A stretch of DNA of 64,000 bases from an uncultured Trueperaceae bacterium (lineage in GTDB: Bacteria > Deinococcota > Deinococci > Deinococcales > Trueperaceae): positions 1 to 64,000 of the forward strand of contig CALMXZ010000010.1 in assembly GCA_937873495.1 (NCBI GenBank), in the 5' to 3' direction. Positions 6,358 through 17,493 of the stretch are shown here, one piece after another; the first letter of the stretch is position 1, and every line of letters starts with the position of its first letter. The notes under the pieces were generated by a model that was given only the letters and a program-made list of their open reading frames with translations, searched no databases and was not told the origin of the DNA. A program made the position numbers and the translations under genes.

Positions 6358-7695
6358 TCACCGCCCGAAGATCACGTCGCTGAAGAGCCGCGTATCGACG
6401 TCGGCGGTGCGCAGGTAGCCGAAGATCGAGGCGAGGTCCTCGGCCGCGTAGTAGGTGTCGTACCCGGACCCGGACGGCGCGACCTGGTGGAACACCAGGA
6501 CGAGCCAAGCGCGCTCCGACGCGGCGCGGTCGATCAGGGCCTTGACGACGCCGGGGCCGTCGCTCGGGACGATGCTGATGGCCCTGACGCGGTACGGGTC
6601 CGCCGGCGGGAACGTCTCGAGGCCCTGCGTGCGCATGATCGTCCGCCCGGCCGCGAAGTAACCGCTCACCTGTTCGAGCGAGGCGCCATCGAAACCGCCG
6701 TAAGGGTACGCGATCACGTCGGCGCCATGGCGAAAGCCGTTGTCGAGCAGCCACCCCTTGACCCCGGCCAGCTCGGCGGCGAGGTCCGCTGGCGCGAGGG
6801 TGTCGAAGCCGCCTTCCTCGAGGGGGGTCGTGTGATGGGCGATGACCTCCCAGCCGCCGAAGCGCTCCGCGATGCGGAGCTGTTCGACGGTCATGAACGT
6901 CGGCTGGCCGACCAGGTCGACGATGGCGGCGACGCTGGCCTGGATGCCGAGGCGCCTGGCGAGCGGGAGCGCGTAGTAGAAGACCCCGTCGCGCGCGTCG
7001 TCGAAGACGAGCGAGACGAGGCCGCGGGCCGGGGCGGGCACGGCCTCGAGGGCGGCGTACCAGACGGTCACCGGGCCGGCTCCGGAGTCGCGCAAGCTCA
7101 ACTGGATGTCGGTCACTTGACCGAGGTCGATGCTCGGGGGTCCGCCGGTCACCGTCGCGCCGAGGTTCGCCGTGATGGTGAACCATTCGTCGTCCTCCGT
7201 GTACGTCTCCTCGGACGGCCGTTGGCCGCCGAGCACGGGGAAGGCGTCGTAGGTCTCGAAGCCGTCCGTGCTCAGGTAGACGAGCAGGTAGTCGAGCGCG
7301 GCCACGCCGCGCAGCTTCAGGTCGAGCCGCAGGAAGGCGTGGCTGAGATCGAACGGGCCGACGTTGGTAGCGCGCAGGTTCACCTGTTTGCCGTCGCCGT
7401 CCGACGTCGCCCTGAGCGAACGGGTGCCGATGAGCACGTCGTCCAGGACCGACTCGGCGCTCCCGGCCGTGCTCTGTTTGACGAAGGCGGTGTCGTACTG
7501 GAAGAGGTCGAGCACGGTTCCCTCGGGTCGCGCTGGCACGGCGATGGGCCGCAGCGCGGTGGGGGCGGTGGGGGTAGAAGAGCCGGTGGCCTGCCCGCCT
7601 TGGGCGAACGCCACTGCGCCAACACCTAGCAGCAGGGTCGCGGTCACGGCCACGAGACGCAGAGCGGTGCTACCGGCGTGTTCTGACAGGTTCAT
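6358..7695 (-). CDS. Secreted polysaccharide deacetylase (NodB-homology) family protein
   Basis: 445-aa exported protein. A signal peptide (ALRLVAVTATLLLGVGAVAFAQ) is followed by an all-beta N-terminal region (about 60-210) and a C-terminal NodB-like domain. Recognisable elements are LVSLVFDDARDGVFYYALPLARRLGIQAS (Asp pair of motif 1), EVIAHHTTPLEEGGFD (the HxxxH/T region of motif 2) and VIAYPYGGFD (motif 3). Such enzymes remove N- or O-acetyl groups from surface polysaccharide. The ATG overlaps the TGA of the upstream regulator by four bases, so the two are one unit. The catalytic motif is variant (FDD/HHTT), so activity should be treated as probable. Confidence 0.75.
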   Translation of the reverse strand: MNLSEHAGSTALRLVAVTATLLLGVGAVAFAQGGQATGSSTPTAPTALRPIAVPARPEGTVLDLFQYDTAFVKQSTAGSAESVLDDVLIGTRSLRATSDGDGKQVNLRATNVGPFDLSHAFLRLDLKLRGVAALDYLLVYLSTDGFETYDAFPVLGGQRPSEETYTEDDEWFTITANLGATVTGGPPSIDLGQVTDIQLSLRDSGAGPVTVWYAALEAVPAPARGLVSLVFDDARDGVFYYALPLARRLGIQASVAAIVDLVGQPTFMTVEQLRIAERFGGWEVIAHHTTPLEEGGFDTLAPADLAAELAGVKGWLLDNGFRHGADVIAYPYGGFDGASLEQVSGYFAAGRTIMRTQGLETFPPADPYRVRAISIVPSDGPGVVKALIDRAASERAWLVLVFHQVAPSGSGYDTYYAAEDLASIFGYLRTADVDTRLFSDVIFGR

Positions 7696-8399
7696 CGTCC
7701 CCCCTCGGCGCGCTGGGCGAAGACGCAACTGCGCTGGCCCTCGGCCATGCAGGACGTCAGGCGTACTTCCGTGCCAAGCAGGCGCGAGAGCAGGCGCTCG
7801 TCGAAGCGGCAGACGGCGCGCGTCTCCTTTGCGACCCGGTGGTACACGCAGTTGATCGCCTCTATGGACCCGCCGTCGGCCGTCAGGCGCGCATGGTAAC
7901 CGAGCTCGCTCAGCTTCTCGACGACGGCCGCCTTGCGGGCCTCCGGCTCCAGCCCAGCGATGGCCGCCAGCCAGCGCTCGGCCAGGTCGTCGGCCATGGC
8001 GAGGAGTACGGCCTCGGCAGCCTCGTCGCCCTGCGACTTGCGCAGCGCCTGGAGCATGCTCAGGGACAACAGGTCGTAACGCCGCGGGAACGACTCGCGC
8101 CCCAACTCGGTCAGTCCGTACGTGCGGCTGGGTCGCCGGCCGCTCGGCCGGAGGCCGTTGGGTGCCACGAGCCCGTCGCGCTCCAGGGAAGCGACCTGTT
8201 GCCGTACGGCGGTCCTCGTCACCCCGAGCCGAGCCGCCAGCTCGTCCAGGGCCAAGCCCTCCGGCTTGGCAGCGAGGAGCTCGTGCATGAGCGCTTCGCG
8301 CGTCGTCTTGGGAGCGGAGTAACCGCCCGTGGTGGCCTGGTCCTGCGTCTCGCACCCACTTCCTTGAACGGCTTGGCGTGAAACCGCGGTCGGAGCCAC
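7692..8399 (-). CDS. SufR-like winged-helix regulator with C-terminal cysteine cluster
   Basis: Up to 235 aa. An N-terminal DeoR/ArsR-type winged helix (GLALDELAARLGVTRTAVRQQVASLERDGLV) is followed by a C-terminal domain with four cysteines (INCVYH, AVCRFD, TSCMAE, RSCVFA) spaced C-x12-C-x19-C-x7-C. This resembles SufR, which senses Fe-S status through a bound cluster. No suf genes are nearby; it is translationally coupled to a polysaccharide deacetylase and divergent from a small secreted protein. An AT-rich inverted repeat in the divergent region is a candidate operator. The start is uncertain: GTG at 8399 is used because the predicted first helix begins upstream of the next ATG at 8288. 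Confidence 0.75.
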   Translation of the reverse strand: MAPTAVSRQAVQGSGCETQDQATTGGYSAPKTTREALMHELLAAKPEGLALDELAARLGVTRTAVRQQVASLERDGLVAPNGLRPSGRRPSRTYGLTELGRESFPRRYDLLSLSMLQALRKSQGDEAAEAVLLAMADDLAERWLAAIAGLEPEARKAAVVEKLSELGYHARLTADGGSIEAINCVYHRVAKETRAVCRFDERLLSRLLGTEVRLTSCMAEGQRSCVFAQRAEGGR

Positions 8400-8437
8400 T
8401 CTACCCGGTCAAGCGCCGCGCCTCGGGTCGAATAATA

Positions 8438-8460
8438 ACAATTATGGCTTGCATTATTGT
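8438..8460. promoter_or_regulatory. AT-rich inverted repeat in divergent promoter region
   Basis: ACAATTATG (8438-8446), gcttg, CATTATTGT (8452-8460): arms match at 8 of 9 positions around a 5-base spacer, in an AT island within GC-rich DNA. It lies between the SufR-like gene (minus) and the 8527 gene (plus), where an operator for the former would be expected. Confidence 0.6.
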
Positions 8461-8526
8461 CGTCAAGGAGTATCCTGTCCGAGTCGGGATGAGGCCTCAC
8501 CCGGTCGAGCGAAAGAAAGGACCATC

Positions 8527-9003
8527 ATGCATACGACCCCAACCAACACACCACCCCGGACTCGGCGGCATCCTATGACCGCCCTCGTCGCGCTCGTCGC
8601 AACCCTGGTCGCGGCGACAGCCGCGGCACAGGACGGCGACCTGCTGCAGTCGCCTCCGCCGGCGCCGTACGTCGCCGTCTCCGCGATCCTCCCCCTGCCT
8701 GACTTCATCCCCGGCGCCGGCGCGCTCTACATCGACCCGGCCGACGCCCCGGTCGGTCCGTGGCTGGCTTACGGCAAGGACGGCGGACTCGTCGAGATCC
8801 TCTTCATGGTGCCCCTCAGCGAGATGCAGAAGGCGACCAACTGGAGCGACCTGGCCGCCGGGCTGCTGGCGCGCCTCGGCAAGACCGTCGATCACGTCGA
8901 CATCTCGTACAACGGCGGGCACCCCGGCATGGCCGAGCCGCACTATCACGTCAGGCTCGCGCTGGTCGACGCCCAGACGCAGGAGGCGCAGCTCAGCCAG
9001 TGA
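8527..9003 (+). CDS. Small secreted protein of unknown function (HPGMAEPHYH motif)
   Basis: 158 aa. The ATG at 8527 is preceded by GAAAGG. An N-terminal hydrophobic signal (TALVALVATLVAATAAAQ) is followed by a compact mature domain with LYIDPADAPVGPWLAYGKDGGLVEILFMVPLSEM and a striking histidine motif, GHPGMAEPHYHVRLALVD. The motif recalls small periplasmic proteins of the TTHB210/DUF5602 type known from Thermus, but this is a visual resemblance only. The histidines could bind a metal. It is divergent from the SufR-like regulator. Its TGA abuts the stop of the opposing protease gene with no gap. Confidence 0.7.
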   Translation: MHTTPTNTPPRTRRHPMTALVALVATLVAATAAAQDGDLLQSPPPAPYVAVSAILPLPDFIPGAGALYIDPADAPVGPWLAYGKDGGLVEILFMVPLSEMQKATNWSDLAAGLLARLGKTVDHVDISYNGGHPGMAEPHYHVRLALVDAQTQEAQLSQ

Positions 9004-13897: not shown

Positions 13898-14398
13898 TCA
13901 GGCGTCGGCGTTCACGCGCCCCGCCGAGTGAGGCCCGACGCCGGCGCTCGAGCGCGTCCCGGCGCGCGGTGGGTCGATCAGGTGCGCGAGCCGCACGCCC
14001 GCCAGCACTTCCCGGATGGCGAGGGAGGCGTTCACCCACGTCACGTTCAGGCGGCAGTAGCCCTTGCGCTCCTGGGTGGCGCAGCGGGTCTTCGTTTGGC
14101 ACGTGTCGACGATGAGCGGGCCCGACATGGTCTCGATGACGTCGAGCAGGGAGACGTTCGTTGGGTCTACTATCAGTGTCACGCCGCCGGTCCGCCCTTG
14201 GCGGTTCTCGACGTAGCCGACCTGGGCGAGGCGCCTCAACACCTTGGCGAGGAAGGCCGGTGGGATCTTCAGATCGCCGGCGATCCTTGCCGCGGCCGCA
14301 CCCGGGTTCTCCGAGGCGTAGATGAGCGCGTGGATAGCGTAGCTTTCCTCGCGGCGGAGGAGGGTCCGGTACGGCGAGAGGTCGATGGGCTCAGCCAC
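13898..14398 (-). CDS. Rrf2-family regulator, NsrR-like
   Basis: 166 aa. An N-terminal winged helix (YAIHALIYASENPGAAAARIAGDLKIPPAFLAKVLRRLAQVGYVENRQGRTGG) is followed by three cysteines (VDTC, TRC, GYC; C-x5-C-x8-C) that in NsrR/IscR ligate an Fe-S cluster. NsrR senses nitric oxide and represses NO and nitrite metabolism genes, which fits its position divergent from nirK. Two inverted repeats lie in the shared intergenic region. The GTG start follows TACCCT by six bases. The NO-sensing role is inferred from family and context; IscR- or RirA-type roles are alternatives. Confidence 0.85.
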   Translation of the reverse strand: MAEPIDLSPYRTLLRREESYAIHALIYASENPGAAAARIAGDLKIPPAFLAKVLRRLAQVGYVENRQGRTGGVTLIVDPTNVSLLDVIETMSGPLIVDTCQTKTRCATQERKGYCRLNVTWVNASLAIREVLAGVRLAHLIDPPRAGTRSSAGVGPHSAGRVNADA

Positions 14399-14473
14399 GC
14401 ATCCAGGGTAGCAGGTGAATCGGACCCGCGCATCCTGGAATGCACCTTGGGCCGGATACGCTGTCTGGAGCTA

Positions 14474-14547
14474 CGGTTAATCGGTTTACCGCAGGACGGG
14501 AGACAGGACATCTGTCCTTGGAGAGACGGCCTCCCGAGGACTAATTT
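14474..14547 (+). promoter_or_regulatory. nirK promoter with two inverted repeats
   Basis: TTGGAG (14518-14523) and TAATTT (14542-14547), 18 bases apart, form a plausible promoter. The inverted repeat AGGACA-TC-TGTCCT (14505-14518) abuts the -35 element, and a second imperfect repeat CGGTTAA-tcgg-TTTACCG (14474-14491) lies further upstream. One or both are candidate operators for the divergent Rrf2/NsrR-like regulator. Confidence 0.6.
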
Positions 14548-14619
14548 GGACTCAGTTATCCGGGTTTGGTGGTGAGCCCCGCCGCCGAACGGCAAGACCG
14601 GAGCCCAGGAGGAAAGAGC

Positions 14620-15816
14620 ATGCGAGACGAACGCGGTAACGTCCCTATCGGAGCGATCTACGGTCTGGTGGCCCTCTTCGTGGCGCTCGCCGTTGGCGTG
14701 GCCCTGTTCGGCAGCCGGGTCGACGCCGCCACTGCCACCGAGGCCGCTCACGCCGCGCACGGCGCGTCGAGCGCGACCGACCACTCCCACGAGCTGACCG
14801 TCAACATGCCCACGACCAGGAAGGCGTTCCTCGACGCCCCCGAGGACCTGGTCCCGGTGTCCGAGCTTCCGCTGATCAAGGGCGTGCTCGGCTACGCCCC
14901 CAACGTCGCGCCGCCCGTAGAGCGCGACTACCGCGCCCACGTCGAGATCGAGCTCGAGGTCACCGAGGAGGTCATGCGCCTGGCCGACGGCGTCGAGTAC
15001 CGCTTCTGGACCTTCGGCGGCTCCGTCCCCGGCCCCATGATCCGCGTCCGCCAGGGCGACTTCGTCACCTTCACCCTGCAGAACCATCCGTCGAGCCTCA
15101 TGCCCCACAACATCGACCTGCACGCCGTGACCGGCCAGGGTGGCGGCGCCGAGGCCACCCTCATCTCGCCTGGCCAGCAGGCGACCTTCTCCTTCACCGC
15201 TCTCCAGGCCGGCGTGTACATCTACCACTGCGCCACCGCGCCCGTCGGCATGCACATCGCCAACGGCATGTACGGTCTGATCGTCGTGGAACCCAAGGAG
15301 GGCTACGCGCCCGTCGACAAGGAGTTCTACGTCGTGCAGGGCGACTTCTACACCAAGGGCGACTTCGGTGAGCGCGGCCTGCAGGACTTCGACATGCAGC
15401 GCGCCATCGACGAGGACGCCGCCTACGTGGTCTTCAATGGCTCCGTCGGCTCCCTGGTCGGCCAGAACGCCATCTTCGCCGAGACGGGCGACACCGTCCG
15501 CATCTTCTTCGGCAACGGCGGCCCCAACCTCACGAGCTCCTTCCACGTCATCGGCGAGATCTTCGACAACGTCTACGTCGAGGCGGGCGGTCTCGTCAAC
15601 CACGACGTGCAGACGACGCTGGTCCCCGCCGGCGGGGCGACCGTCGTCGAGTTCAAGACGGACGTGCCCGGCACCTACAACCTCGTCGACCACGCCATCT
15701 TCCGCGCGTTCAACAAGGGCGCCGTCGGGCAGCTCGTGGTGACCGGCGAGCACGACCACGTGGTGTTCACCGAGCGCACGGACATCCGCCCGTACGTCCC
15801 CGCTGACGGCCAGTAA
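14620..15816 (+). CDS. nirK: Copper-containing nitrite reductase (NO-forming)
   Basis: Reduces nitrite to nitric oxide outside the cytoplasm. 398 aa from an ATG with AGGAGG upstream. An N-terminal hydrophobic anchor or signal (about 9-31) and a His-rich linker precede two cupredoxin domains. Metal ligands are complete: MPHNIDLH gives His163 (type 1 Cu), Asp166 and His168 (type 2 Cu); YHCA gives His203 (type 2) and Cys204 (type 1); [11 protein letters not shown] gives His212 and Met217 (type 1); [11 protein letters not shown] in domain 2 gives the third type 2 His (about 309). It is followed by nirV and an SCO-type copper chaperone, and regulated probably by the divergent NsrR-like protein. 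Confidence 0.97.
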
Positions 15817-15902
15817 GAACCTGCCGCGCAAGTTGGGTCGCCCGGCAACACCGCTCACCGTGAAGGTTCGAGCGCGAGGGTGCACGACCCCCAGAAGCTA
15901 GA

Positions 15903-15931
15903 CGGCGGCGCGCCGGACGAGCGCGCCGCCG
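15903..15931. repeat. Intergenic hairpin between nirK and nirV
   Basis: Perfect 11-bp stem with arms 15903-15913 and 15921-15931 and a seven-base loop, all G/C. Probably an intra-operon mRNA stabiliser or attenuator; there is no U-tract. Confidence 0.55.
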
Positions 15932-15950
15932 ACCCTACCGGAGAAGCGCG

Positions 15951-16727
15951 ATGACGATGTCCACCAGCATCCGCCACAAGCTAGCGAAGCTCATGCTCCT
16001 CGTCGCGGCCTGCGCCTGCGGCCTCGCCGCCGCGGCGAGCATGGCGGCGGTCGACGGCGGCCTGGTGGAGCCCCTCTTCCCGATCGAGGGCGAGGGGGCG
16101 ACCGTGGTGGCCGCGTTCAGGATCGACGTCCTGCCGGTTACGAACGCCGAGTTCCTCGCCTTCGTCGAGGCGAACCCGGAGTGGCAGCGGGGCAACGTCC
16201 CCCAGGTGTTCGGCGGCGCAGCGTACTTGCGCGGCTGGGCCTCCGGCACGGACTTCGGCACCCTCGACCCCACCGCCCCCGTCACCAACGTGACCTGGTT
16301 CGCCGCCGCGGCGTACTGCGAGGCGCGCGGCGCGCGCCTCCCGACCGAGGCCGAGTGGGAATTCGTCGCCAACGCCGGCTTCTCGAGCGAGCTCGGCAGG
16401 AACGAGCCCGGCTACAACGAGCGGGTCCTCGCGCTGACGGCCAACCGCAACCCGGTGCCCGGCCCGGTCGGGCTCGGCACGGTCAACTACTACGGCGTGT
16501 ACGACATGCACGGCCTCGTGTGGGAATGGGTGTTCGACATCGGCGCGAGCTTCAACACGGGCGACAGCCGCAGCGACGGCGACCGCCGCCTGCAGCTAGT
16601 CTGTGGGGGCGGCAGCGCCGGGGCCGTCGACAAGAGCGACTACGCCGCCTTCCTGCGCTACGCGTTCCGCAGCGGCCTGACCGGCGACTACTCGAGCGGC
16701 GGGCTCGGGTTCCGCTGCGCCAACTGA
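15951..16727 (+). CDS. nirV: NirV-like SUMF1/FGE-fold protein lacking catalytic cysteines
   Basis: 258 aa with a signal peptide (MLLVAACACGLAAAA) and one FGE-sulfatase-type domain: VLPVTNAEFLAFVEANPEW, VTNVTWFAAAAYCEARGARLPTEAEWEFVA, VYDMHGLVWEWVFD and a terminal GGLGFRCAN. The region that in true formylglycine-generating enzymes carries the two copper-binding cysteines reads GGGSAGAVDKSDYAAFLRYAFRSG here, without them. It therefore should not make formylglycine. It matches NirV, found next to nirK in many denitrifiers, whose biochemical role is not settled. A GGAG-like SD precedes the ATG. Confidence 0.85.
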   Translation: MTMSTSIRHKLAKLMLLVAACACGLAAAASMAAVDGGLVEPLFPIEGEGATVVAAFRIDVLPVTNAEFLAFVEANPEWQRGNVPQVFGGAAYLRGWASGTDFGTLDPTAPVTNVTWFAAAAYCEARGARLPTEAEWEFVANAGFSSELGRNEPGYNERVLALTANRNPVPGPVGLGTVNYYGVYDMHGLVWEWVFDIGASFNTGDSRSDGDRRLQLVCGGGSAGAVDKSDYAAFLRYAFRSGLTGDYSSGGLGFRCAN

Positions 16728-16737
16728 GGAGATCGGC

Positions 16738-17493
16738 ATGAGACACTTCGAAGACTCGAACGCTTCCCGGGGCGCGCGCCGCCCTCGCGGCGGCTGGGCG
16801 AAGTGGGGCGCAGCGCTGGCACTGGCGGCCGCCGTCCTCTTGACGGCTTGTGACGCGAAGCGCGAAGCGGCTGGCGCCACCGCCGCGGACGCGGTGGCCG
16901 TCCACGCCGGGCACGCCGAGCACGCCGCGCAGCAGGCCCAGGAGCCGGATGCCCACGCCGGGCACGCCGGACACCAGGAGGCCCTCGCCGCCGCCGCGCT
17001 CCCAGGCACCTCGCTCTTCCATATGACCGGGGCGTTCACGGCTCAGGACGGGGCCGAGTTCAGGCTCCCCGAGCTGCGCGGCCACCCTTCCGTCGTCGTC
17101 ATGTTCTACGGCGACTGCACCACCGCGTGCCCGCTCCTCGTCAAGTCCGCGCAGGACATCGAGGCGGCCTTGCCTGCCGACGTCGCGGCCGCCACCCAGT
17201 TCGTGATGGTGTCGTTCGACACGGACCGCGACACGCCGGACAAGCTACGCGCCTACGCGGACGAGAAGGGCCTCGACAAGGACCGGTGGCACTGGCTGAT
17301 AGGTGGCCCGCTCCTCACGCGCCAGCTCGCCACGCTGCTCGGCGTCCAGTACCGCGACGGCGGCAACGGCGTGTTCGCCCACAGCAACCTGGTGACCGTG
17401 CTGGATGCCGACGGCGTTCCGACCGCCAGGCTCGAGGGCCTTGGGGTCGAGTTGGATCCGGCGTTGGCGGCGATCAGGGCCGCGCTCGACTGA
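16738..17493 (+). CDS. SCO1/SenC-family copper chaperone lipoprotein
   Basis: 251 aa; membrane-anchored thioredoxin-fold protein that delivers copper to extracytoplasmic copper enzymes, here most plausibly NirK or an oxidase CuA site. A lipobox LLTAC (Cys38) is followed by a histidine-rich linker with repeated HAGH units (about 56-80). The SCO motif FYGDCTTACP (Cys126, Cys130) and the distal ligand His in GVFAHSN (about 214) are all present. It begins ten bases after nirV stops. The HAGH linker is encoded by imperfect DNA repeats and may itself bind copper. Confidence 0.93.
   Translation: MRHFEDSNASRGARRPRGGWAKWGAALALAAAVLLTACDAKREAAGATAADAVAVHAGHAEHAAQQAQEPDAHAGHAGHQEALAAAALPGTSLFHMTGAFTAQDGAEFRLPELRGHPSVVVMFYGDCTTACPLLVKSAQDIEAALPADVAAATQFVMVSFDTDRDTPDKLRAYADEKGLDKDRWHWLIGGPLLTRQLATLLGVQYRDGGNGVFAHSNLVTVLDADGVPTARLEGLGVELDPALAAIRAALD

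Follow-up and report, generated by a model that had tools for sequence, protein, structure and literature searches.

A SufR-related four-cysteine regulator is a probable iron-sulfur-sensing repressor of a divergent TTHB210-like exported protein in the Trueperaceae

We analysed a stretch of 64,000 nucleotides from an uncultured Trueperaceae bacterium (assembly GCA_937873495.1, contig CALMXZ010000010.1, positions 1 to 64,000; hereafter the window), in which the gene for a SufR-related regulator with four C-terminal cysteines is divergent from a gene for a small exported protein (exoprotein). The features of this locus are as follows.

7692-8399, minus strand: SufR-like four-cysteine regulator (winged helix-turn-helix (wHTH) at residues ~33-105, predicted V4R/TRAPPC3-like sensor at ~106-234; C184, C197, C217, C225 and H187)
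8527-9003, plus strand: exported TTHB210/DUF5602-like protein (ATG at 8527, preceded by the Shine-Dalgarno sequence AAAGGA; conserved DHV, GHPG and PHYH)
8430-8459, no strand: proposed 12-6-12 operator of 30 bp, putative (core AATAAT-N16-ATTATT at 8431-8458)
8439-8468, no strand: alternative register of the operator, overlapping 8430-8459
8449-8476, plus strand: probable exoprotein promoter (-35 TTGCAT at 8449-8454, 16-bp spacer, -10 TATCCT at 8471-8476)
6358-7695, minus strand: secreted protein resembling a deacetylase (overlaps the stop of the regulator gene by ATGA; a companion at genus level only)

The window genome (G000) was compared within a set of 111 Deinococcota genomes. The orthologous regulator was detected in seven of these, from three genera (G000, G082, G083 and G091-G094), and in 7/7 its gene lies beside and divergent from that of the exoprotein; we refer to the four-cysteine regulator and the TTHB210-like exoprotein gene as the pair. 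For the regulator, an alignment of 14 close relatives comprised the seven orthologues, including that of the window, and seven second copies. A wider set was drawn from 80 relative loci, in 69 of which the regulator was found by gene calling (it was missed in 11); one of these 69 was dropped beforehand as duplicate or short, and the window and 68 loci, mostly from Pseudomonadota, form the 69-row wider alignment.

The original prediction described a four-cysteine C terminus in the regulator and was made to hang on the conservation of these residues. C184, C197, C217 and C225 (C-x12-C-x19-C-x7-C) are indeed there, and they are invariant in 14/14 close relatives and 69/69 members of the wider set. 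Moreover, the strict pattern NC-x12-C-x19-C-x7-C-x-F is present in 67/69 wider relatives, the remaining two keeping the four cysteines with longer gaps. The closest NCBIfam model is SufR_cyano (TIGR02702), which aligns over residues 33-226 at 43.1 bits, below its cut-off of 178.8; a betaproteobacterial relative scores 82.7 bits. The N terminus is uncertain: the first in-frame start is the GTG at 8399, and where G093 has its homologous start, GTG ACG, the window reads GAG ACG.

The spacing of C184, C197 and C225 (13 and 28 residues) is that of the three SufR cysteines. SufR of Mycobacterium tuberculosis (Rv1460) binds an iron-sulfur (Fe-S) cluster and needs C203, C216 and C244, which are spaced identically, for its function (PMC6034842); similarly, the last three of the presumed ligands of Corynebacterium glutamicum SufR (171, 175, 188 and 216) are spaced 13/28 (PMC11995493). 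By contrast to SufR, the window regulator has a fourth invariant cysteine, C217, an exported protein as its apparent target, and no suf neighbourhood: as the original prediction stated, it is not coupled to suf, sufB lying ~557 kb away (C10:565789 versus C10:7695 in G000; judged by gene position only). SufR proper was ruled out by the sub-cut-off profile score together with this distance.

In an AlphaFold2 model computed from the 69-row alignment (mean predicted local distance difference test score 86.8), residues 30-105 match MarR/ArsR winged helices, while residues 106-234 match the sensor domains of MopR, DmpR and PoxR (Z about 12, 3.0-3.7 Å over 128-131 residues; for MopR 5kbg, Z 12.5 and root-mean-square deviation 3.6 over 129) as well as Bet3/TRAPPC3 1wc9 (Z 11.2). 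By this structural match, the C-terminal domain is predicted to have a V4R/TRAPPC3-like fold; Foldseek alone gave a weaker match (MopR, E 2.6e-3) and the Pfam V4R profile alone scored 14.7 bits (threshold 31). MopR, DmpR and PoxR are AAA+ sigma-54 activators that are not known to have the SufR cysteine triad, and a modelled fold in common with V4R sensors does not show which cofactor the regulator holds. The geometry of the ligands makes Fe-S binding plausible. A further relative is ArnR of Corynebacteria, a [4Fe-4S] protein that loses DNA binding with nitric oxide (NO) and that likewise combines a wHTH, a dimer helix and a TRAPPC3-like sensor with C-terminal cysteines; however, ArnR has three cysteines only (179/193/223, spacing 14/30) and targets narKGHJI and hmp (PMC12343034), whereas the window spacing is 13/28 and no nar or hmp genes were recognised beside the regulator. 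In total, we conclude that the regulator is related to SufR and ArnR without being a SufR equivalog, and that it has a fourth conserved cysteine and an apparent target outside suf.

The divergent open reading frame has the signal-peptide-like N terminus and the motif GHPGMAEPHYH that had been noted originally. It had been taken to be of unknown family; instead, it is a homologue of TTHB210 (PDB 3vg8; E 3.2e-27 over residues 56-152, with HPG..EPHYH in common). The window exoprotein gave no match to PF18197 at E up to 0.1, and a betaproteobacterial homologue scored 26.2 bits against a threshold of 26.6. Across 12 aligned homologues, the histidines of DHV and GHPG and the first histidine of PHYH do not vary, which hints that the exoprotein may bind metal. 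TTHB210 is a homodecamer under sigma-E control. No literature was found on TTHB210, TTHB210-like or DUF5602 proteins, most subscription journals lying outside the coverage and no search being aimed at the Pseudomonas regulator; searches on the Thermus sigma factor likewise yielded nothing on TTHB210. In T. thermophilus HB8, TTHB210 lies on pTT27 and, like its homologue in the window, is divergent from regulator genes, which in Thermus encode a sigma factor and an anti-sigma factor and in the window the SufR-like regulator.

TTHB210-like genes occur in 18/111 Deinococcota genomes, and the neighbourhoods were read for 13 of the 18; in the six of these without the orthologous regulator, none of the called genes flanking that of the exoprotein was a regulator relative. 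Outside this phylum, a betaproteobacterial metagenome-assembled genome (G111, locus L083) has the regulator and a TTHB210-like gene in the same direction. In the regulator tree the deinococcal sequences form a clade without L083, and in the exoprotein tree those of the seven genomes with the pair do likewise, with a warning for long branches. Since L083 falls outside the deinococcal clades in both trees, regulator and exoprotein were probably brought together on more than one occasion. TTHB210-like genes were detected in 2/369 genomes of the class, 4/300 of the order and 1/4 of the family, G111 being counted each time, and in the neighbourhoods read the regulator was beside such a gene only in G111, which is also the only one of 14 genomes with distant regulator relatives to have a TTHB210-like gene. 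The original prediction had joined regulator, exoprotein and deacetylase in one trio. Co-occurrence of the first two held in 7/7 genomes of three genera plus one betaproteobacterium, while adjacency of the deacetylase does not extend beyond the genus; therefore, the regulator is strongly linked to the exoprotein but weakly to surface polysaccharide.

Among the wider relatives, 55/69 have a small exported protein within four genes of the regulator, nearly always next door; two members were scanned and had no Pfam or NCBIfam match. In L088-L154 the partner gene is upstream of or divergent from that of the regulator (e.g. L137:5331-5963 and L140:5164-5784) and its product is exported with conserved histidines. 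The regulator neighbours are DUF4142 and cupredoxin genes in Marinicaulis and a truncated globin gene in Methylococcaceae.

An AT-rich inverted repeat had been pointed out between the two genes of the window. It is present at 8438-8460 (arms ACAATTAT and ATTATTGT, 7/8 paired), but only G092 and G094, the closest genomes, retain its left arm, which is lost in G082, G091 and G093; this ruled the repeat out as the control site. The conserved element is AATAAT-N16-ATTATT within 8430-8459, and the pair intergenic regions have similar sequences in common. With at most two mismatches, this core occurred at a single place each in the window's own genome, G082 and G092, in all cases in the pair intergenic region, and in G093 and G094 at the intergenic site plus one other place each; it was found nowhere in G091 and G090, and at two places in G083, both elsewhere. 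A reversed-pattern control gave 0 to 1 matches per strand per genome. A large regulon was rejected, the core having no second place in the window's own genome at this threshold, although weaker sites could exist. The exoprotein -35 lies inside the proposed operator, and a -35 hexamer (TTGCAT, TTACAT or TTGCTA) occupies the same place in the site in G000, G082, G091-G094 and L083, where the promoter geometry is alike.

A 12-6-12 palindrome with the consensus CAATTAAAGCAT-N6-ATGCTTTAATTG also precedes the unnamed exported gene in 40/54 examined relatives and is near-perfect in Pseudomonas. A matrix derived from 22 distinct sites, all of them from Pseudomonas, had its two best matches in the 64-kb window at 8439 (-1.5) and 8430 (-2.8), the next scoring -15.3. 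Moreover, its best match fell in the pair promoter region in G092, G094, G093, G091, G082 and L083, though not in G083, and in 17 of 18 non-Pseudomonas relatives, all but L130, the regulator/partner promoter region contained the best match of the whole locus. Because these promoter regions are AT-rich, column-permuted matrices were used as the control, giving p values of 0.011 (window), 0.0004 (G082) and 0.0028 (L083).

Altogether, we observe conserved ligands, a predicted architecture, a conserved divergent pair and a conserved site covering a -35 that is conserved too, and from these we infer DNA binding, repression, a cluster, its signal and a function for the exoprotein. The regulator is probably a dedicated, Fe-S-sensing repressor of the exoprotein, and we incline slightly towards a local repressor of the exoprotein promoter that is released on cluster damage. 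It would bind the palindrome at 8430-8459 as a dimer, covering the exoprotein gene's -35 and thereby blocking RNA polymerase; it would probably also repress itself. The V4R/TRAPPC3-like domain would hold an oxidant- or NO-sensitive cluster through C184, C197 and C225, with C217 or H187 as the fourth ligand, and damage to or loss of the cluster would release the repressor and allow the exoprotein to be made. The deacetylase, which lies outside the conserved core, may be co-transcribed with the regulator in the window's genus through the ATGA overlap.

A nitrite-reduction cluster at 13898-17493 is conserved in the genus; there, an Rrf2 regulator gene with C-x5-C-x7-C on the minus strand is divergent from nirK (14620-15816; TIGR02376, 355.7 bits), a gene for an FGE-sulfatase-domain protein, and SCO1, and nirK, Rrf2 and SCO1 are 5-9 kb from the pair. 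Since SufR and ArnR respond to NO, the proximity of these genes makes NO a reasonable signal, but neither G082 nor G083 has the nirK region next to the pair.

Several observations weigh against an Fe-S-sensing repressor of the exoprotein. The G083 pair is without a matching site (p 0.48), and G093 (p 0.059) and G091 (p 0.081) are borderline. Among 25 promoter regions, many of them related, 14 passed the permutation test and 11 failed at 0.05, the latter including Methylomonas/Methylococcaceae (with the truncated globin neighbour), L101, L117, L127, L130 and L153. Furthermore, G000, G092 and G094 are near relatives and not independent, the proteobacterial TTHB210 pairing comes from one metagenome-assembled genome, and elsewhere TTHB210-like genes have no SufR-like regulator beside them, their neighbours being sigma factors and cupredoxins. 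A plastocyanin/azurin-like gene follows the TTHB210-like gene in all three annotated alphaproteobacterial plasmid records, two of which have a sigma factor within about 3 kb, and in Roseibium the gene is near cbb3 oxidase genes; four proteobacterial TTHB210-like loci all have a cupredoxin-like neighbour and three a sigma-factor-like one (both judged by eye), and one has a cbb3-like oxidase. Finally, the four cysteines could equally hold zinc, and an activator at the same place is compatible with the data. As a side observation, in both Thermus and Proteobacteria (L157, L161-L167) the recurrent company of TTHB210/DUF5602 genes is extracytoplasmic function (ECF)-type sigma factors, cupredoxins and cbb3-like oxidases.

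If the cysteines held a structural or sensory Zn(Cys)4 site in the V4R-like domain, comparable to the zinc sites of MopR, DmpR and TRAPPC3, the regulator would sense zinc or a small molecule with no Fe-S cluster. The best structural matches, MopR, DmpR and PoxR, hold zinc near the ligand pocket via residues that include a C-x7-C pair, and C217/C225 of the window regulator form a C-x7-C pair too; in addition, some bound zinc is reported for ArnR (PMC12343034). The exact match of C184/C197/C225 to the SufR Fe-S triad and the alignment of TIGR02702 over nearly the whole regulator speak against zinc, and we consider it unlikely. The regulator could also be an activator that recruits polymerase from a site just upstream of or over the -35, in which case loss of the cofactor would switch the exoprotein off. 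A weak promoter with its -35 covered by the site would also suit some activators, and the -10 elements here are imperfect (TATCCT). Yet the site covers the -35 itself, and SufR and ArnR, the characterised wHTH Fe-S relatives, repress their targets (PMC6034842, PMC11995493, PMC12343034), which makes activation improbable.

It is highly doubtful that the trio is an envelope circuit whose regulator acts chiefly on the deacetylase, and with it on surface polysaccharide, while also controlling the exoprotein. The deacetylase-like open reading frame of the original description does lie directly downstream of the regulator, with an ATGA overlap, and the two genes overlap by 4 bp in G092. The assignment as a deacetylase did not hold up as well: the profile scores are weak (PF01522, 16.0 versus 23.1 bits; HfsH, 32.3 versus 400 bits), and although FDD is present, the second histidine of CE4 motif 2 (HSxxH) is missing in 5/5 aligned proteins, which argues against an envelope circuit and leaves the protein short of a CE4 polysaccharide deacetylase in both the PF01522 gathering score and motif 2. 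The gene directly follows that of the regulator in four of the six pair genomes with that side visible (G000, G091, G092 and G093; in G094 the contig ends), an adjacency confined to the window's genus; other genes follow in G082 (VWA protein) and G083 (DinB-like protein). Moreover, the congener G090 retains the deacetylase without the pair and has only a C-terminal regulator relic, downstream of the deacetylase (L061:9467-9592); here, the pair is lost and the locus rearranged. On this neighbourhood comparison, a core function in polysaccharide control was rejected.

The main role known for SufR-type cluster-sensing repressors is self-control of suf, and that for ArnR is nitrate respiration. 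If the regulator is indeed an Fe-S-sensing repressor of the exoprotein, a sister class that has a fourth invariant cysteine, and whose cross-phylum operator precedes genes for small exported proteins, would connect the envelope with Fe-S or NO status in the cytosol and give a physiological setting to the uncharacterised TTHB210/DUF5602 family and to the unnamed Pseudomonas exported protein. Tentatively, and with somewhat less than even confidence, we propose a widespread class of four-cysteine wHTH-V4R repressors, so far without a name, in at least Deinococcota and Pseudomonadota, that would read cytosolic Fe-S, NO or oxidant status and control small exported proteins instead of suf through the operator CAATTAnnGCAT-N6-ATGCnnTAATTG, which would be conserved between phyla, the exported partner being swapped between a TTHB210-like protein, an unnamed helical Pseudomonas protein, and DUF4142 with cupredoxin.

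One wider relative, L093, is a GC-rich locus from a record titled Oceanobacillus sp. HTM 045, and its regulator groups with Pseudomonadota despite the Bacillota name; the record is possibly mislabelled or contaminated. The second four-cysteine regulator copy is found at L063:8769-9413, with homologues in L062, L064-L067 and L074; in the window's own genome it lies at C7:145819, beside a transporter-like gene. In its seven loci, the matrix revealed no clear AT-rich operator, the best scores ranging from -4.9 to -32.2 and lying mostly far from the promoter; the -4.9 match, in L064, is upstream of the second copy and not far below the -1.5 of the window, but is unlike the site. A transporter-like gene of 430-457 amino acids adjoins the second copy in 6/7 loci (by eye).

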